From NCBI GenBank assembly GCA_022712915.1, contig JAFLJQ010000100.1, positions 1-41,083 on the forward strand: DNA of 41,083 bases, given 5' to 3'. Positions 158 to 40,918 of the stretch are shown piece by piece; position 1 is the first letter of the stretch; every line of letters begins with the position of its first letter. The position numbers and the translations under genes are program-made. The stretch is from Gammaproteobacteria bacterium. GTDB taxonomy: Bacteria; Pseudomonadota; Gammaproteobacteria; UBA6429; Thiohalophilaceae. The notes under the pieces were generated by a model. That model was not told the origin of the DNA, did no database searches, and saw only the letters and a program-made list of their open reading frames with translations.

Positions 158-631
158 ATGGGCGGGCTTATCTTTATATTTATCATCCTTCCTCATTATA
201 TCATCCCCCTGTTTAGCAAAAAACACAGAGAAAATTTTATTGAGCGTATAACAAAACATAACGATGACGAGAACGAATCACATAAAAAATCATTTTATAG
301 AATGCTATCTTCAAAAATGAACCTTCTTAATCCCATTGGTTTATTGCTATGTGCAATTTACTTATTAACCATGCTAGCTTCATATATTTCAGTTGAAACA
401 AAATACCAATACTACACCATAAACAAAGGCAAGGAAGTTGTGCTACGAGTTTATGGCAAAAATGTAGTTACTGCGTTATTTGACAGAGATAAAAAGTTGA
501 TCAAAAGAGCCATTCGCGTGCGCCCCCTATCTACTTTTGATAGATTTATCTTAAGGAAAGAAAACATCGGCCCCCTCAAGCTTGAGCCGCGAGAAGAGGG
601 CAAGACTAAAAGTAAAGAGGTGAAACAATGA
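158..631 (+). CDS. Hypothetical membrane protein encoded just ahead of the serine recombinase
   Basis: I do not recognise this 157-residue protein. It has a hydrophobic N-terminus (residues 3-18), a polar, charged stretch, and a second membrane segment near residues 58-75 (NPIGLLLCAIYLLTMLAS). A basic, soluble C-terminal half ends in a Lys/Glu-rich tail. Its stop overlaps the recombinase start by 4 bp (ATGA), so the two are translationally coupled and belong to the same mobile element. The frame is open upstream only to a stop at 128, next to the presumed IS3 end near 134. The protein could therefore be truncated at the N-terminus by that insertion, or ATG 158 could be the original start. A regulatory or accessory role for the recombinase is possible, but nothing in the sequence shows it. 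Confidence 0.6.
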   Translation: MGGLIFIFIILPHYIIPLFSKKHRENFIERITKHNDDENESHKKSFYRMLSSKMNLLNPIGLLLCAIYLLTMLASYISVETKYQYYTINKGKEVVLRVYGKNVVTALFDRDKKLIKRAIRVRPLSTFDRFILRKENIGPLKLEPREEGKTKSKEVKQ

Positions 632-2370
632 AAGCCGCAATCTACGCCAGAAAATCAAACGATGACAATGACAAGTCAGATGATAACAAGTCGGTCACCC
701 GTCAAATCAAACATGCCAAGGCTTACGCAAAATCCAAAGGTTGGACGGTGGATGAAGAACACATCTACGTGGACGATGGCATCAGCGGCGCTGAATATCA
801 GAATCGTCCCGGCCTGATTAATTTGCTTGCCCATGTAAAGGAATTTGATTTTTTAGTGATGTCCGAGTCTGCCCGCTTTGGCCGTGACATGCTGAGGAAT
901 GCGACCTACTTGAGCAATGTTCTTGATAGTGATGTGCGTGTGTTTTACTACCTTACCAACGATGAAGAACTGGCAGGCACCCCTGAGCAAAAAATGATGA
1001 TGCTATTCAAAGGCTATGCGTCCGATGTTGAAAGACAAAAGGCAAGCCACCGCAGCCGAGACAAAGCAAAGCAGCAATTTGATAATGGTAAGGTCACTGG
1101 CGGGCGTGTTTATGGATATGATAATTGCTGGGTGTTTAAGGATGGGCATAAAGAAATTGCCCCTGTTGGTGCCGAAAAACCCTCTGACGTATCGCATGCC
1201 ATCTATGCCATTAATGAAGAGCATGCAAATATAATCTGTAGTATTTACAAAATGTATTGTGACGGGTTTGGTATTACCCGCATTGCTAAAACATTAAATG
1301 GCGATCCCAAGTATCAGGATTTGAGCCTAAAATATTTTAATGGTCAGAGCCCCAATGCCCCGGCCCATGGCACCAAGAAAGGTGTAAGCTCTTGGCCGCC
1401 CTCCTCCATCCGCAAAATTCTAAATAATGAGCGTTACATCGGCCAAATTCCTTGGGGGTTGCATCGCAAAGAATACAAGCACGGCACCAAGGTCCGCACC
1501 AAGCAAGAGAACCCACAACAAAAATTTGATGAAAATCTAGTTATCATAAAACCAGCGCTATGGGATAAAACCCAGAAACGTCTCAAAGCCGTCAGAGGAA
1601 CTTACGTAAGAGATAACAATGGCAACCTATGGGGTCGGCCTGATACTGGTCGTGAGTCTAGGTACTTGCTTACAGGCTTTGCCCGTTGCGGTTGTTGTAA
1701 GTCGAGTATGACCGCCTCCTATTTTAAAAGCGGGAACAAGAAGGTATATCACTACATATGCGGCCACTATAAAAAACGTGGTTCAACCGTATGTAGTAAT
1801 AACGTAAAACCCAAGATGGGTGAACTGGATGACATTGTGCTGAGCAATATTGAACAGACAATCCTCACACCCGATAACGTTATGTATGTTGTAAAACAGG
1901 CGGCACACAAAATAAAAGAACAACAGCAGGCCAACCCCAACAAACCGAAACAGCTACAAAAAGAAATTACCAAGCTGAAATTGGAAGTGGAACGGTTTAT
2001 GGCAGTCATTGCCACAGGTAATGCACCAGACAGCATCTTGCAGCAAATTACAGAACGTGAATCCCGCATTAGCCTATTAGAAGCTGAACTAGTTAAATAT
2101 TCAGCACCCACTGATTTTAGTGAGCTAGATAATAAGAGACTTGAAAAGGAGCTATCTGGGAGGCTGAGCCGTTTTAGAGAGTTGATATATAGTGATGTTC
2201 CCAAAGCGCGGCAAGCATTTCGGAAATTACTGAATGGTTCTATAGTGATAACACCAGAGCCGGACGGCTACAGCGTGAGTGGTGAAACTAGGCTGGGTGC
2301 ATTACTACACCCAGCAACTAGCGCCTGTATGGCGTCCCCAAGGGGGTTCGAACCCCTGTTACCGCCGTGA
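628..2370 (+). CDS. Large serine recombinase (site-specific integrase) of a tRNA-Glu-associated element
   Basis: This 580-residue protein has the large serine recombinase layout. An N-terminal resolvase domain carries YARKS, with the probable catalytic Ser at residue 10, and the downstream SARFGRD arginine motif. The recombinase domain follows (about 180-310), then a zinc ribbon with Cys clusters (CGCC near residue 353, later Cys residues near 377 and 389) and a coiled-coil stretch around 425-490. Such enzymes integrate and excise phages or mobile islands at att sites. The last 13 or so codons (starting MASPRGF) lie inside the antisense of the 3' part of tRNA-Glu. The stop codon at 2368-2370 lies opposite the tRNA anticodon loop. 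The present C-terminus is therefore partly host-derived, and the phage or plasmid form probably ended differently. The element extends leftward beyond the window. Confidence 0.9.
   Translation: MKAAIYARKSNDDNDKSDDNKSVTRQIKHAKAYAKSKGWTVDEEHIYVDDGISGAEYQNRPGLINLLAHVKEFDFLVMSESARFGRDMLRNATYLSNVLDSDVRVFYYLTNDEELAGTPEQKMMMLFKGYASDVERQKASHRSRDKAKQQFDNGKVTGGRVYGYDNCWVFKDGHKEIAPVGAEKPSDVSHAIYAINEEHANIICSIYKMYCDGFGITRIAKTLNGDPKYQDLSLKYFNGQSPNAPAHGTKKGVSSWPPSSIRKILNNERYIGQIPWGLHRKEYKHGTKVRTKQENPQQKFDENLVIIKPALWDKTQKRLKAVRGTYVRDNNGNLWGRPDTGRESRYLLTGFARCGCCKSSMTASYFKSGNKKVYHYICGHYKKRGSTVCSNNVKPKMGELDDIVLSNIEQTILTPDNVMYVVKQAAHKIKEQQQANPNKPKQLQKEITKLKLEVERFMAVIATGNAPDSILQQITERESRISLLEAELVKYSAPTDFSELDNKRLEKELSGRLSRFRELIYSDVPKARQAFRKLLNGSIVITPEPDGYSVSGETRLGALLHPATSACMASPRGFEPLLPP
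2292..2315. repeat. Perfect inverted repeat next to the tRNA-Glu/element junction
   Basis: GCTGGGTG (2292-2299) and CACCCAGC (2308-2315) form an 8-bp stem with an 8-nt loop, only 14 bp before the CCA end of tRNA-Glu. It lies inside the recombinase frame. It could be the transcription terminator of tRNA-Glu, although the T-run on the minus strand is weak, or part of the recombinase binding site at the att junction. Confidence 0.5.
2330..2370. other. Probable attachment site (att) shared by the mobile element and tRNA-Glu
   Basis: The recombinase frame continues without interruption into the tRNA 3' half (T arm and variable region, up to the anticodon loop) and stops there. An integrase gene directly abutting a tRNA 3' end is the usual sign of an att site. 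A duplicate of this segment is expected at the far, left end of the element outside the window, so the exact core cannot be defined here. Confidence 0.5.
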
Positions 2371-2405
2371 AAGGGCGGTGTCCTAGGCCTCTAGACGATG
2401 GGGAC
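2330..2405 (-). tRNA. tRNA-Glu (anticodon UUC)
   Basis: Read on the minus strand, the gene begins GTCCCCATCG and ends TGGGGACGCCA with an encoded CCA. It is 76 nt long and folds as a cloverleaf with a 7-bp acceptor stem. The anticodon stem is CCGCC/GGCGG around loop CTTTCAC, giving UUC. The T arm has the GTTCGAACCCC pattern. It lies downstream of gltX (which makes glutamyl-tRNA), glnS and tRNA-Ala on the same strand. Its 3' half is overlapped in antisense by the recombinase frame. Confidence 0.95.
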
Positions 2406-2689: not shown

Positions 2690-2765
<76 letters not shown>

Positions 2766-2946: not shown

Positions 2947-4647
2947 CTATGAATTATGTTCTTGTTCGAGCTTAGCCCAGGTGTCCCGCAGAGTGACGGT
3001 GCGGTTAAAAATCAACCGTTCGTGGCTATTCAATACGCTATCCAGACAAAAATAACCCTCCCGCTCAAACTGATAAGTCACACCTACCCGCACCTCGGCC
3101 AAATCAGGTTCGACATAGCAATTTGTGAGGGTTCGCTGGGAATCGGGGTTGATGTGGTCTTTGTAGTCCTTGCCGTCTTTGGTGGCATCCGGGGTGGGAT
3201 GGCTGAAGAGGCGATCACAGAGCCTGATTTCGGCCTCCAGGGCATGAGGTGCAGAGACCCAATGAATTACCCCTTTGACCTTACGCCCCTCAGGATTAGC
3301 TCCCAGGGTGGCTGCATCGTGACTGCAATGTAATTCAATAACCTCGCCCTTTTCATCCTTGATGATCTCATCACAACGGATCACGTAAGCTCCCCGAAGG
3401 CGTACCTCACCATTGGCAATCAAGCGTTTGAACTTCTTGTTAGGCGGAACCTCTTCGAAGTCATGTCGGTCGATATAGATCTCACGACTAAAAGGGATCT
3501 GCCGTTTCCCCATAGACCCATCCTGAGGGTGATTCGCCATGCTCAGTTGTTCTATCTTATCTTCAGGGTAATCGGTTATCACCACTTTTAAGGGGTGCAG
3601 TACGGCCATACGGCGCGGTGCATGGATATTTAAATCGGTGCGGATACAATCTTCCAGCACGCCCATTTCAATCAAGTTGTCTGATTTAGTCACGCCAATA
3701 CGTTCACAGAACTCACGAATCGATGCAGCGGTAAAACCACGACGACGCAGACCGGCGATGGTTGGCATACGTGGGTCGTCCCAACCCTCGACCAGCCCTT
3801 CACTGACCAGTTCGGTCAGCTTGCGTTTGCTCATCACGGTGTATTGCAGATTGAGGCGTGAAAATTCAATCTGCCGAGGATGACAAGAGATGCTAACATT
3901 ATCTAGGATCCAGTCGTATAAAGGGCGATGATCCTCAAATTCTAGGGTACAAAGGGAATGGGTGATCCCTTCCAGGGCATCAGAAATGGGATGAGTAAAG
4001 TCGTACATGGGGTAGATACACCAGGCCTCACCGGTCTGGTGGTGTATCACACCATGGCGAATGCGATACAGGGTTGGGTCGCGCAGGTTGATATTGGCTG
4101 AGGCCATATCGATCTTGGCACGTACCACTTTCATGCCGTCCCCAAACTCCCCGGCCTTCATGCGGGCAAACAGATCGAGGTTTTCTTCCACGCTACGTGT
4201 GCGATAGGGACTGTCCCTACCTGGCTCTTTAAGCGTACCGCGATAAGTACGTATTTCATCGGCATTTAGATCACAGACATAGGCCTTGCCTGCTTTGAAC
4301 AGTTCCACGGCAAAATCATGTAACTGTTCAAAATAATTGGAGGCATAATAAAGCCTGTCATCCCAATCAAAACCCAGCCATTTCACATCATCCTGGATCG
4401 CCTCAACGTACTCGATATTTTCCTTATGCGGATTGGTATCGTCAAAGCGCAGATTACATATGCCCTGATAGTCCGCTGCAATACCGAAGTTCAGCACAAT
4501 GGATTTGGCATGACCGATATGCAAATAGCCATTGGGTTCCGGCGGAAAACGTGTCACCAGCCTGCCACCATTCTTATTGGCCTTGATGTCTTCTTCGACG
4601 ATCTGGCGAATAAAATTAGTTGGCTTGTGTTTCTGTTCCTGAGTCAT
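2947..4647 (-). CDS. glnS: Glutaminyl-tRNA synthetase
   Basis: The cytoplasmic enzyme charges tRNA-Gln with glutamine using ATP. The 566-residue length matches bacterial GlnRS (E. coli about 554). The class I signature is seen in [15 protein letters not shown] (HIGH motif, around residue 40), and the KMSKS equivalent as MSKRKL near residue 273. The C-terminal third has the paired beta-barrel anticodon-binding region typical of GlnRS. It starts at ATG 4647, 33 bp after the gltX stop, so it is probably in one operon with gltX. A dedicated GlnRS means this organism need not rely on the GatCAB route for Gln-tRNA. Confidence 0.97.
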
Positions 4648-4680
4648 AAATATAAAAACGCCTTGAAATAATAAACGGTG

Positions 4681-6087
4681 TTAATCAGTTGCACGTTGTT
4701 GAATGTAGCCCAGCGCCTTGTCGATACGTTCCAGACTAGCCTCTTTGCCGGTGAGGTAGACGGTTAGATCCAGATCGCCGGAAGGTACACCCCCGGTAAT
4801 CGCGAAACGTAGCGGCATCCCAACCTTACCCATTTTCACGCCCAGTTCATCGGCCACACCGTGAATGATGGCGTGAATGTTCTCGCGTGACCAGTCTTCA
4901 AGACTGGCTAGTTTCTCTCTAACTTTATTCAGAGGTTTTACAGCGACAAGCCGTAATTGCTTTTTGGCCCCGGCTTCACCGTATTCCACCTCATCCCGGT
5001 AGAAAATGGCGCAGATATCGGCCAGTTCAAGCAGGGATTTGGCCCGCTCCGCCTGCATGGCAACCACCTGTACCAGCGGAGGCCATTTGGCAGGGTCAAT
5101 ATTTAATTTACCCATATGCGAACTTAACAAATGAGCCACTCGGGCCGGATCATCGGATTTAATATAGTTCTGATTCAGCCAAAGAAGCTTTTCGGTATTA
5201 AAAGATGAGGGTGCCTTGTTGACATTCTCAATATCAAATAGCTCAATCATCTCATCGAGGGAAAATATTTCCTGGTCACCGTGGGACCACCCCAGGCGTA
5301 CCAAATAATTCAACAGAGCCTCGGGCAGATAACCATCATCACGGTACTGCATGACCCCCACCGCGCCGTGGCGTTTGGACAATCTCGCACCATCGTCACC
5401 GAGAATCATGGGCACATGGCTATAGCGAGGTGCTTGCTTGCCCATGGCCTTGAGGATATTGATCTGTCGCGGGGTGTTATTCAAATGATCGTCACCGCGA
5501 ATCACATGGGTAATGTCCATATCGAGATCATCCACCACGACGGTGAGGTTGTAAGTCGGAGAGCCGTCTGTGCGACGGATGATCAGATCATCCAGTTCAC
5601 TGTTTTGAAAGGCCACCTTGCCGCGAACCATGTCGTCAAAAACCACCACACCGTCCTGAGGATTCATAAAACGAATGACATGAGGCGCATCAGGATCAAC
5701 GTGCTGGCCCCGGCACTGACCATCATAGCGAGGCTTTTGCTTATTGGCCATTTGTGCTTCACGTAGTTTTTCCAGGCGTTCCTTCGGGCAATTGCAACGG
5801 TAGGCCTTGCCCGCGTCCAGAAACTGTTCAATCACCTCGTTATAGCGGTCAAACCGGTGTGTCTGATAAAACGGCCCTTCATCGTATTCCAGCCCCAGCC
5901 AGGTCATGCCCTCAAGAATGGCATTAACGGACTCGGTGGTCGAGCGTTCCAGATCGGTGTCTTCTATACGCAAGATAAACTTGCCACCGTGCTTACGAGC
6001 ATAGAGCCAGGAAAATAACGCAGTGCGAGCACCACCTACATGCAGAAAGCCCGTCGGGCTGGGAGCAAATCGAGTTCGGATAGTCAT
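4681..6087 (-). CDS. gltX: Glutamyl-tRNA synthetase
   Basis: This cytoplasmic class I synthetase makes Glu-tRNA(Glu) for translation, and also for haem synthesis by the C5 pathway. The 468 residues match the discriminating bacterial GluRS. The HIGH region is [17 protein letters not shown] near the N-terminus. A Cys/His cluster, CNCPKERL, lies near residue 98. The KMSKS equivalent is ARLSKRHG near residue 238. The C-terminal half is the alpha-helical anticodon-binding cage. The gene is the first of the gltX-glnS unit and shares its upstream region with the divergent DUF2892 gene. The nearby tRNA-Glu is its substrate. Confidence 0.97.
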
Positions 6088-6391
6088 CAGGGGATTGAAT
6101 TCATTGCCATTTATGGAAACAGAGCATTGTACTCATCCATTGAAAAAAAAACAGCATCTAGTTAGGAAAATGGCTAGATCTCCACTCCGACCCATTTTTC
6201 GATTTCGATGACAAGAGCCAAATTGGGCGGCGCAGAATCAAAGCATGAGAGTGAAAAAAGCCACGTTGTGACTATCATCGTAGCAATAGCATCATTAATA
6301 GTGATACAATTATTTTGCTTGGCAAAAGCAAGAAAAATTTCATACTTATTTACTATGCTACTATGCGCATAAACAGATAATAGAGGTTAGC
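6088..6391. other. Divergent intergenic region between gltX and the DUF2892 gene
   Basis: This region of about 300 bp is AT-rich and has no convincing gene. It must carry the gltX promoter (minus strand) and the promoter for the DUF2892/GGDEF-EAL unit (plus strand). AGAGG lies 6 nt ahead of ATG 6392 as a Shine-Dalgarno. I saw no clear sigma-70 pair worth asserting. Confidence 0.5.
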
Positions 6392-6619
6392 ATGATCTTA
6401 AAGCGTAACATTGGGGGCATAGACAGAGCACTTCGGGTCAGCTTCAGTTTACTGATGCTTTATTTTGGCTTTAGTGATAACACCATCATTACCGATCAGA
6501 TGGCCGGTGTTATCATTGGTATAATCGGTCTGGCAAGTCTCTTAGTTGCTGTGGTAGGAATCTGCCCCCTCTACACAGTCATTAAACTTAATACCCTTGA
6601 CTCGACAGATAAATCTTAA
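6392..6619 (+). CDS. DUF2892 family inner-membrane protein
   Basis: This 75-residue protein starts with the family-typical MILKRNIGGIDRALR. Two hydrophobic helices follow, at about residues 15-28 and 36-60, with the short VGICPLYTVI signature near the end. DUF2892 (the membrane part of YgaP-like proteins) often accompanies rhodanese or sulfide-related genes, but no rhodanese domain is present here. AGAGG before the start supports ATG 6392. The GGDEF-EAL frame opens just 20 bp after its stop, so the two are probably co-transcribed. The biochemical role is unknown. Confidence 0.8.
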   Translation: MILKRNIGGIDRALRVSFSLLMLYFGFSDNTIITDQMAGVIIGIIGLASLLVAVVGICPLYTVIKLNTLDSTDKS

Positions 6620-6685
6620 TTCAATTTGCAGGCATAACCCATCTCCTTACGCGGCCAACTACTTGTTTATTTTACGTCGATCATT

Positions 6686-8551
6686 TTGATCGCCATGCTG
6701 ACCTTTGGGCTGATTGCCTACGAAATAGCTCATGACTCTGCCATCGAAAAAGAAAAGCACCTGCTAAAAGGTATCGTCAAAGTGGAAAGTTCTTACTTGG
6801 CTAGCCATTTTAAAAGAACTCCTTCACTGGATAATCTGCAAACATACCTCTCAAACGGTGTGAACAGTGACCACCTTTCTCTATTGCTTAATAACAATGG
6901 CCCGCTTCTCATCCCGGCCCTGATGGACATAGAAAATCATCATCAAACATTTCCACTCAAAAAGATCCTCACAGAAAAAACCCCTGACGGCCAAGTTAGT
7001 ATTGATGGCAAACTGTATCTTTGGGTAAAACTACCTATTTCTGGCAGCCCTTATGATTTAATTCATATCTTTCGCAGTAGTTACCAAATTAGCACCCCCT
7101 TTAGCAGTCTCGCTGCGCGGCTAGTCGCAGTAGGTATCTTTATTCTCTGGGTTGCCGTGTGGGTGGCACTAATCATATCTACGGCAGTAACTCGCCGCCT
7201 GAAAGCACAAAATGATGCATTGGAACATCAGGCTCTGCATGACAGCCTCACTGATTTACCTAACCGCACCTTGTTACACAACCGCCTTGAATATGCCATC
7301 AAGTCAGCAAAACGTGATAAACATCAGGTCGCCCTGATTATGATGGATCTGGATCGTTTCAAAGAAATTAATGACACTCTGGGTCATCACATCGGCGATC
7401 TATTATTACAACAAGTAGGCATTCGTCTGACTAAAAACTTGAAAAAAACAGATACCATTTCACGCTTTGGTGGTGATGAATTCGCCATACTATTACCCAA
7501 AGCAGAATTATCCCATGCTAGGCTAGTGGCGAATAGAATTATCAAGGCTTTACACGCGCCATTTCAACTGGAAGACTCTTCAATAGAAATTGATGCCAGC
7601 TTTGGGGTTGCCCTCTACCCACAGCATGCTAATGATTGCACAACCCTGATCCTGCGCGCAGATGTCGCTATGCATCTGGCCAAAAGCACTGATAATGAAT
7701 TTGCAATATATGATCAAGACAAAGATCCACATAGTCTGGCAAGATTGACCCTGACGGGAGACTTGCGTCATGCAACTGAACATAATGAAATGGTTTTATA
7801 TTACCAACCAAAGGTAGATATCAAAACCGGTTTTATTCTAGGTGTTGAGGCCCTAATGCGATGGCAACACCCACAACTCGGTCAGATAAAACCCGATGAA
7901 TTTATCCCACTTGCGGAGCAAACAGGCATGATCAAGTCTCTGACCTTATGGTCTCTGCGTGCCGCCGTAAAACAATGTGCACTTTTACATCAGGCCAATT
8001 ATCCCATCACAGTATCAGTTAACCTGTCCGCCAGTATCCTCCAGGATCTACAGGTGCCCTCTCAGGTCATGGCCATTCTTAACAGGCATAATCTTCCTCC
8101 TCGCTATCTGGAGCTAGAGATCACTGAAACCACCATTATGAAAGATCCACAACAGGCACTTGATATCCTGACCCGCCTTAATCATTTAGGCGTACGGCTC
8201 TCAATTGATGACTTCGGCACGGGCTACACATGCCTGTCTTACCTCAAACAATTGCCAGTTGATGAAATAAAAATTGATAAATCATTTGTTGTAAATATGC
8301 TTAACGATGAAAATGACGCAATGATTGTACGCTCTATCGTCGATCTTGCTCATAATATGGGACACAAAGTCACAGCAGAAGGCGTAGAAACACTCGCAAT
8401 ACTGGCTTCACTTAAAGAGCAACAATGCGATAAGGCTCAGGGCTTTTATTTTTCGCCGCCAATCCCATATGATGAACTTGAGCAATTATTAGCAAGTTCA
8501 ATGTACGGGGCGACAAAAAACATAGCCACGATGCTACGCCCGGTGAACTGA
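6686..8551 (+). CDS. Membrane-bound GGDEF-EAL cyclic-di-GMP protein
   Basis: The protein has an N-terminal membrane helix, a periplasmic stretch (about residues 20-135) and a second helix (RLVAVGIFILWVAVWVAL). A GGDEF domain follows with intact RFGGDEF (about residue 260), then an EAL domain with GVEALMRW (about 387) and the DDFGTGY motif. Both motifs are complete, so it could make or degrade c-di-GMP; the sequence does not say which dominates. The start is uncertain. TTG 6686 is the first usual start codon, but it cuts the first membrane helix in half. The frame stays open back to a stop at 6635-6637 and encodes ISLRGQLLVYFTSIILIAML, beginning with ATC 6641 that has GCAGG 8 nt upstream. The true product may be 636 residues starting at an unusual codon. 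Confidence 0.88.
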   Translation: MIAMLTFGLIAYEIAHDSAIEKEKHLLKGIVKVESSYLASHFKRTPSLDNLQTYLSNGVNSDHLSLLLNNNGPLLIPALMDIENHHQTFPLKKILTEKTPDGQVSIDGKLYLWVKLPISGSPYDLIHIFRSSYQISTPFSSLAARLVAVGIFILWVAVWVALIISTAVTRRLKAQNDALEHQALHDSLTDLPNRTLLHNRLEYAIKSAKRDKHQVALIMMDLDRFKEINDTLGHHIGDLLLQQVGIRLTKNLKKTDTISRFGGDEFAILLPKAELSHARLVANRIIKALHAPFQLEDSSIEIDASFGVALYPQHANDCTTLILRADVAMHLAKSTDNEFAIYDQDKDPHSLARLTLTGDLRHATEHNEMVLYYQPKVDIKTGFILGVEALMRWQHPQLGQIKPDEFIPLAEQTGMIKSLTLWSLRAAVKQCALLHQANYPITVSVNLSASILQDLQVPSQVMAILNRHNLPPRYLELEITETTIMKDPQQALDILTRLNHLGVRLSIDDFGTGYTCLSYLKQLPVDEIKIDKSFVVNMLNDENDAMIVRSIVDLAHNMGHKVTAEGVETLAILASLKEQQCDKAQGFYFSPPIPYDELEQLLASSMYGATKNIATMLRPVN

Positions 8552-40189: not shown

Positions 40190-40860
40190 TCATGGCTACC
40201 TGCCTGAATTGCCCACCATCACGGAAGGTAACATCAGCAATATTAAAATAGGTCGCACACTGACCTTCCCCAAAGGCAGCATTGTCGCTATCGGCCTAGG
40301 GTATAACTATAACCAACTGACTTCAAAAGGAGTACTCTTTGTCTCGCGTCTTAAGTCGGGTGCGAAAATACGTATTGTATGTCGCCATTCGCCATTCGGT
40401 ATTCGGTATTCGGTATTCGGTATTCAATGATAAAGGGATCACCCGTGATCAAACCATTGAATTCACGGGGAAGCAGATGGCATCGAGGTGTCACCTTTGA
40501 CTGCGCCGTATTGGTTAGCGTGATCCTGAGACCGGCAAGCACTATGTTTTTCTGACGAACCATTTCAAGCTAATGGCCAAGACCATTGCCGATATCTATA
40601 AAGTGCGGTGGCAGGTAGAATTGTTCTTTAAATGGATAAAACCGAACCTGAAGATCAAATCCTTTATCGGTACCAGTAAGAATGCCGTTATGACACAGAT
40701 ATGAATTGCTCTGTGCGTTTATTTGATCTTGGCCTTTATCAAGTTCCTGTCGGAATTTAACAAAAGCATGCAGCAAATTCTGCGAATATGACAGCTCAAT
40801 CTCTTTAATAAACAGGATCTGATGACCTTGCTGCGAGAGGTTCCTATTGGTGAGGCGCCA
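40190..40860 (+). pseudogene. Decayed IS4-family transposase
   Basis: The fragments match the catalytic part of an IS4-type DDE transposase: HGYLPELPTITEG, IKIGRTLTFPKGSIVAI, then GLGYNYNQLT where an intact enzyme would have the catalytic Asp in DRGY. NHFKLMAKTIADIY and VRWQVELFFKWIK (the YREK-type Glu motif) follow. Near 40704 a TGA replaces a Trp codon (MTQI-stop-IAL). A heptamer repeat tract interrupts it at 40383-40424. Missing catalytic residue, frameshifts and stops make it a pseudogene. The end reads LLREVP near 40853. Confidence 0.8.
40383..40424. repeat. Heptamer tandem repeat inside the IS4 remnant
   Basis: Six contiguous 7-bp units, two of CGCCATT followed by four of CGGTATT. The tract lies in place of normal transposase codons after RIVCRHS, so it arose by expansion or insertion after the gene was already dead. 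Confidence 0.9.
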
Positions 40861-40918
40861 TCAGCAAGAAATCAGTTGGAGTTAATATGAACGTTAACGG
40901 GACAGCAGTGATGTCATA

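Follow-up and report, generated by a model that had tools for sequence, protein, structure and literature searches.

The window analyzed here is the complete contig JAFLJQ010000100.1 (41,083 nt), one of the 274 contigs of the draft genome GCA_022712915.1, from a gammaproteobacterium of the family Thiohalophilaceae. Its left edge is very probably the right end of an integrative element driven by a large serine recombinase (LSR), with the 3' end of a tRNA-Glu gene as bacterial attachment site (attB). The LSR open reading frame (ORF; 580 aa, positions 628 to 2370 of the plus strand) runs from an ATG start to a TGA stop and has no stop before the tRNA. Its frame enters the tRNA-Glu(TTC) gene (2330 to 2405, minus strand, 3' end on the left) antisense for 41 bp and closes at the TGA at 2368 to 2370, which overlaps the complement of the anticodon (2369 to 2371), the final codons reading M568 A S P R G F E P L L P P580. 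This continuation of the frame up to the anticodon had been described in the original prediction, made from the sequence alone, and the ORF and ARAGORN coordinates confirmed it. The protein matched three Pfam domains, all above the cut-off: Resolvase (PF00239, residues 3 to 155, E value of 3.9e-20), Recombinase (PF07508, 197 to 320), and Zn_ribbon_recom (PF13408, 347 to 408). The catalytic serine is Ser10, nearly invariant in the LSR alignment. The AlphaFold model has a mean predicted local distance difference test (pLDDT) score of 76.3. Its C-terminal part contains long helices at 415 to 435, 439 to 462, and 468 to 492, which may include the coiled-coil insertion of LSRs; the last strand lies at 547 to 551, and residues 562 to 580 have pLDDT values of <50. 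The tRNA itself is intact with an encoded CCA and adjoins the integrase gene at the end of the element, as in tRNA-integrated genomic islands. It would represent attR, half from the element and half from the host.

If the LSR is the integrase of the element, its own attachment site (attP) would lie within the 3' end of the LSR gene and carry the last ca. 12 nucleotides of the tRNA, and therefore integration would rebuild the tRNA. The putative att core is the 3'-terminal 16 bp of the tRNA (TGGCGTCCCCAAGGGG, 2330 to 2345, plus strand), of which relatives hold partial copies. Position 11 from the tRNA 3' end is nucleotide 66, the last of the acceptor strand, and position 12 is nucleotide 65, the first of the T stem. 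By analogy with the attP dyads of an LSR clade that ends in tRNA-Met (see below), crossover would most likely occur at this junction, with AA at 2340 to 2341 (plus strand) as putative crossover dinucleotide. In the integrated state, the antisense strand of the host tRNA would then supply the last nine codons, residues 572 to 580 (RGFEPLLPP), together with the stop (2341 to 2370, plus strand), and the LSR gene would run head-on into the tRNA. We infer that the window element recombines at the tRNA-Glu end and that the tail is a different one in its circular form.

The use of tRNA genes is a recurrent mode for this class of recombinases. In the bacterial family of the window, 8 of 40 genomes contain a total of 12 LSR places, and 7 of these places overlap a tRNA (Glu in G000, G007, and G026; Met in G000, G023, and G025; Arg in G000). 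Among 369 gammaproteobacterial genomes, we located 62 LSR places in 48 genomes and examined all of them. According to ARAGORN, the LSR gene extends into the 3' end of a tRNA gene at 16 of them (8 tRNA-Met, 3 tRNA-Glu, 3 tRNA-Ser, 1 tRNA-Asn, and 1 tRNA-Arg). In each of the 16, the two genes are on opposite strands and converge, and no overlap occurs at an LSR start. One further place overlaps a transfer-messenger RNA (tmRNA) gene. Inspection by eye added three cases: an LSR whose end falls in a tRNA truncated at the contig edge, another that ends in a partial tRNA-Asn, and a frameshifted LSR copy that stops 364 bp before a tRNA-Arg. In a second sample of 67 places, composed of 27 loci returned by the search and 40 picked from a longer, capped list (66 outside the Gammaproteobacteria), 7 LSRs overlap a tRNA 3' end, again convergently, and 4 have a tRNA 187 to 245 bp downstream. 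These four (L257, L258, L261, and L274), outside the class of the window, end before a convergent tRNA-Tyr, -Ser, -Ser, and -Gln, respectively, and their att sites are perhaps outside the LSR gene. As a control, we considered ORFs of at least 300 aa in loci of at least 10 kb, partly selected for LSRs or tRNAs: 10 of 358 end on a tRNA, all 10 are LSRs, and none starts on one. LSR genes end on tRNAs more than expected by chance. The original prediction had called this arrangement unusual, which agrees with the literature (the Islander paper, see below) but not with the genomes, where, at 16 of 62 and 7 of 67 places, it is not rare.

A change of the gene end upon integration was observed in the sister tRNA-Met clade when viral and proviral forms were compared. 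We scanned IMG/VR with this clade and took the best 80 of 441 loci: the LSR overlaps a recognized tRNA-Met in 26, stops at a contig edge in 38 (most of them within tRNA-Met antisense sequence), has the core without a recognized tRNA in 12, and has neither in 4. In the records of two phages, Rhizobium phage RR1-A and Microcystis phage Mae-JY30, the last LSR codons include a tRNA-Met-like end, and RR1-A shares 14 bp with the tRNA-Met of G448 that adjoins a 46%-identical LSR. Locus L346, without tRNA and taken as unintegrated, and L347, ending in tRNA-Met sequence and taken as proviral, are 93.7% identical over 1,560 nt of DNA and diverge directly after TGGTAGCGGGAGA (position 13), so that VIKLVAG is followed by 55 viral residues in the former and by EGLEPPTRGL in the latter. 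A second pair, L310 and L311 (97.9% identity), diverges after TGGTAGCGGAGG. Overall, a motif rule assigned tRNA-coded tails to 91 of 134 distinct loci of the clade, and 82 of the 91 end in L, while the unintegrated forms carry tails of their own, and the viral ones look alike by eye only at their ends. These sequence comparisons support the view that integration would swap the C-terminal tail of the LSR. The earlier claim that integration alters the last residues of the enzyme is supported by the viral and proviral forms of the tRNA-Met clade, and in the window it would apply to residues 572 to 580. Even the loosest bound on the crossover (the 19 bp of G003, see below) would leave the last six residues host-coded.

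The same clade provided the short att core and the attP dyad on which the crossover position is modeled. The best inverted repeat was centered at tRNA 3' positions 11 and 12 in 8 of an initial 9 putative attPs, which lie inside the LSR genes of viral contigs and of phages, and, after a second scan, in 13 of 16, compared with 14 of 91 integrated forms. The figure of 13 of 16 is made up of 12 of the 15 rule-called loci kept after inspection by eye plus RR1-A. Among the 24 attP-like loci, those dropped were L310 and L400 (partial tRNA-like), L399 and L401 (contig edge), L410, L436, L456, and L459 (tRNA-coded tail), and L437 (duplicate of L346), and without these drops the count is 13 of 24. The strength of the dyad evidence is the shared center and not the single scores.

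The repeats linked to LSRs are short, with 12 bp in G128, 14 bp in G574, 16 bp in G026:C11, and 19 bp in G003. In G128:C10 the repeats (TGGTAGCGGGGG) are 6.7 kb apart and the left copy sits, by eye, behind a terminator-like hairpin; in G574:C6 they are 64 kb apart, at a tRNA-Ser. These lengths bear on the possibility that the element entered tRNA-Glu by means of a tyrosine integrase, with the adjacent serine recombinase as a passenger. The tRNA-Glu site is indeed also used in that manner, since G031 and G032 have repeats of 45 to 49 bp that extend to the anticodon region, as those of tyrosine integrases would, and L126, a relative of the window LSR locus, has a gene with the Pfam domain Integrase_1 upstream of its LSR, which we take to be of the tyrosine type. 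However, the LSR-linked repeats (12 to 19 bp) end near the acceptor/T-stem junction, unlike the longer class, the LSR genes that end in tRNAs belong to several clades, and in two phage records the tRNA segment is inside the LSR gene itself, so we regard the passenger explanation as very improbable. The longer repeats occur as tandem tRNA-Glu 3' copies with differing neighbors in L041 (G032:C44; 622 to 670, 2125 to 2171, and 8207 to 8254) and L039 (G031:C41; 1 to 48 and 1537 to 1584). They are probably a second, longer att class at tRNA-Glu, belonging to tyrosine integrases; we had considered the 48-bp repeats of G031 and G032 as LSR att sites and rejected this, as no LSR abuts them.

To place the window LSR among its relatives we used a quick tree of 58 LSRs with branch support from the Shimodaira-Hasegawa-like approximate likelihood ratio test (SH-aLRT) only. 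In this tree the window LSR groups with L126 (42% identity), G011, and G050, whose LSR (50%) is truncated at the edge of its contig. The nearest relative with its gene end present is L126, which reads into a tRNA-Leu. A separate clade (G026, G239, G007, and G096) also ends in tRNA-Glu; thus, two distant clades use this tRNA, and the ten LSRs ending in tRNA-Met require two changes on the tree. An LSR fragment in G003 (38% identical to the window LSR) ends in TGGCGTCCCGTAGGGGAGT, 19 bp identical to the variant tRNA-Glu end of its own host; this end lies 2.5 kb from the tRNA-Glu, and the core is followed by a repeat and not by the tRNA. Genome contigs yielded no relative in a single-protein search with the window LSR and four loci in an alignment-based search; identities in phage and plasmid records were ca. 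22 to 25% among the matches listed, and the PDB sequence search returned three chains, matching the catalytic domain only. Among the loci of these LSR groups, L078 (G011:C106, 1 to 5464) has three ORFs resembling, by eye, type I restriction-modification genes upstream of the LSR, and L047 (G026:C20), a contig with LSR and tRNA-Glu, has Cas9 and Cas1 genes (Pfam; 3083 to 7158, minus strand) and, by eye, a repeat array around 1 to 1700 upstream of the LSR.

The variety of targets among the closest relatives (tRNA-Leu, tRNA-Glu, and the end of a protein gene in G011:C106) would fit tRNA-Glu being a secondary site of the window LSR, with the main target elsewhere. Against this, the G003 relative is found at a tRNA-Glu end whose core is the variant of its own host, though beside the repeat copy 2.5 kb away, and we consider a secondary site improbable. 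The missing left part of the element and the broken copies in G003 and G347 might instead point to a decayed remnant whose read-through is a lost stop codon without a role. This seems unlikely, given that the window ORF is unbroken and retains Ser10 and the three domains, and that the overlap recurs among many intact LSRs.

Several results weigh against an LSR element recombining at the tRNA-Glu end. Searches of the 274 contigs with the 3' 34 bp (up to 3 mismatches), 16 bp, and 12 bp of the tRNA recovered the tRNA itself only, and TGGCGTCCCNNAGGGG and TGGCGTCCCCAA are each present once in the assembly. No second core copy was detected within 72 kb around the G003 fragment, and among 22 other tRNA-LSR loci, many of them on short contigs, the flanks examined showed a clear second tRNA end in just 2. 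The full-length relative in G011:C106 (37 to 39% identity) does not reach a tRNA; its end lies about 6 bp from a protein gene. No attP was found for the window clade, for which the viral scans gave one distant match and then none. With regard to the dyads, L344, L418, and L454 have none centered at 11 and 12, single scores are often no better than those of shuffled sequences, and the attPs reconstructed for G128 and G574 lack a dyad at this position. As the contig begins 627 bp left of the LSR, the other boundary lies outside the window, and since the tRNA 3' segments occur once each, the other end of the element must be absent from the assembly or in a gap. Of the original prediction, then, the second tRNA-Glu segment at the far boundary, which lies beyond the contig, was not recovered from the 274 contigs, and the role of tRNA-Glu as attachment site is supported by the relatives but, because the left end is missing, not demonstrated for the window element itself.

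Two genomes of the same genus (G001 and G002, one of them 75% complete) keep the tRNA-Glu in the same neighborhood and gave no LSR match at an E value of 0.001. Neither combined an empty site with a recombinase, a combination that had been named as counting against the proposal. G002 looks like a clean empty site, with a strong terminator hairpin (z of -8) after the tRNA-Glu, while the window has no such terminator; G001 has an additional 16-bp copy of the tRNA-Glu end 195 bp downstream. The window tRNA-Glu (2330 to 2405) differs from that of G001 and G002 on both acceptor strands, in a compensated manner, and is closer to the tRNA-Glu of other genera. A tRNA-Glu-end repeat that continues much like ACTCGGC...CGCCTCGCCC was noticed near tRNA-Glu in three genera, with two copies in L017 (G009; 1062 and 1315) and one each in L008 (G001; 2209) and L085 (G003; 1517), and it contains the same 16- to 19-bp core as the tRNA-Glu 3' end. 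In L122 (G011:C107, 413 to 14743), 14.3 kb separate the tRNA-Glu from a 16-bp copy of its end that sits behind the genus's own terminator; this region has RHS-like ORFs by eye and no LSR match.

The original prediction had also suggested that the altered tail could affect direction control between integration and excision. The model makes this unlikely, because the swapped residues belong to the tail with pLDDT of <50 beyond the last modeled strand. Another possibility is that integration acts as a protein-stability switch. The free enzyme would often have an -AA or -VA end that resembles an ssrA/ClpXP degradation tag, and crossover at the acceptor/T-stem junction would replace this tag with a tRNA-coded tail (e.g., EEGFEPPTQGL) and a stop, with the tRNA transcribed head-on into the LSR gene. 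What becomes of the integrase would thus be determined by the host tRNA. In the tRNA-Met clade, the only one where this was tested, an AA or VA end was present in 10 of 16 unintegrated tails compared with 83 of 1,131 other ORFs of the same contigs, a class picked after the tails had been inspected; for A alone the counts are 11 of 16 and 192 of 1,131. The tail count omits the open frames L314, L370, and L418, adds L315, L417, and L427 (core variant by eye), and includes RR1-A, which the motif rule had misplaced, probably as the sole "integrated" tail ending in A. The rest of the 19 loci without motif, most with tRNA-like tails by eye, were omitted. With the ambiguous ones among the omitted loci included (L327/L387, on one contig and ending in AA; L330, ending in G; L360, ending in W), the AA/VA count becomes 11 of 19. 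On the other hand, neither of the circular tails reconstructed for G128 and G574 has an AA or VA end, and a final A is also seen in several LSRs that have no tRNA. For these two reasons the pattern is a lead only, and we hold a stability switch to be doubtful, even if, from the sequences, the loss of a degron-like end might fit better than direction control.

A hairpin lies directly downstream of the tRNA, within the 3' end of the LSR coding sequence (2292 to 2315, minus strand; z of -3.0 and -4.1 in two runs), without a U tract. In the 55 nt downstream of the tRNA and within the LSR gene, z relative to shuffled sequences was below -2.5 in 14 of 30 junctions versus 2 of 120 control windows, while a strict rule of hairpin plus U tract gave no clear enrichment (5 of 30 junctions versus 16 of 180 controls). 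In G003, G128, G581, and G482:C8, the hairpin resembles a genuine tRNA terminator. The lack of enrichment under the strict rule weakens the idea that the hairpin at the LSR end is a full replacement terminator.

Upstream, a 157-aa ORF without Pfam match (158 to 631, plus strand) overlaps the LSR start by 4 bp (ATGA). The right flank, on the host side, contains a tRNA-Ala(GGC) (2690 to 2765, minus strand) and ORFs resembling glnS and gltX by eye. Transposase-like gene pieces were recognized by eye at both contig ends (1 to 72, minus strand, apparently the start of such a gene, and about 40400 to 40900) and are the likely cause of the assembly breaks.

Serine integrases are prized for their short att sites and one-way integration. 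If several clades use tRNAs at a defined position, acceptor ends would constitute an attB class that can be predicted, and LSR elements would be overlooked by island finders designed to seek only tyrosine integrases at tRNAs. Because the gene lacks a stop of its own, database LSR entries may carry host-coded ends, which is relevant to cloning, and the free and integrated tails offer a clear test of whether integration alters the enzyme. LSRs at tRNA genes, the crossover position, and viral/proviral tails were not found in the literature searched, which included few subscription journals. The Islander paper on tRNA islands states that serine integrases were not known to use tRNA genes (PMC4383910), and the word tRNA is absent from the main text, as available, of a survey of 6,207 LSRs (PMC10083194).

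The arrangement resembles tyrosine-integrase islands in that attP carries a tRNA 3' fragment that restores the gene, but the enzyme is unrelated (PMC4383910). LSR genes without a stop at their target are already known, since DsiB and the rumA integrases have been described. In the ssrA islands of Dehalococcoides, DsiB is a serine recombinase at a tDNA-type gene, that of tmRNA; its gene always overlaps att at the 3' end and takes its stop from the neighbor, even from ssrA itself, the repeats are of 20 bp, and the authors suggest that the overlap is functionally relevant (PMC3146451). The window LSR likewise overlaps its putative att, at a position derived by analogy, and stops within the target RNA gene, whereas DsiB targets tmRNA at the T-loop, is CcrB-like, and has a small partner, the adjacent serine recombinase DsiA. 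The ORF next to the window LSR (157 aa) has no Pfam match, and any genes beyond it lie off the contig; the available parts of that report contain no comparison of viral and proviral tails (PMC3146451). Within the class of the window, L174 (G050:C158, 1989 to 2341) has an LSR that enters a tmRNA 3' end in the manner of DsiB. The serine integrases of streptococcal integrative and conjugative elements in rumA have 2- to 21-bp repeats in the target and in the integrase gene, and, as in the model for the window, integration alters the sequence and length of the integrase C terminus; there, however, integration exchanges the end of the target, a protein gene, and restores no tRNA (PMC4701971). Integration also changes a C terminus in the integration-dependent immunity of mycobacteriophages, where the -AA ends of repressor and integrase have been proposed as ssrA-type degradation signals (PMC8092301). 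In those phages the repressor is altered and the integrases are of the tyrosine type, whereas here it would be the serine recombinase itself that is altered (PMC8092301).

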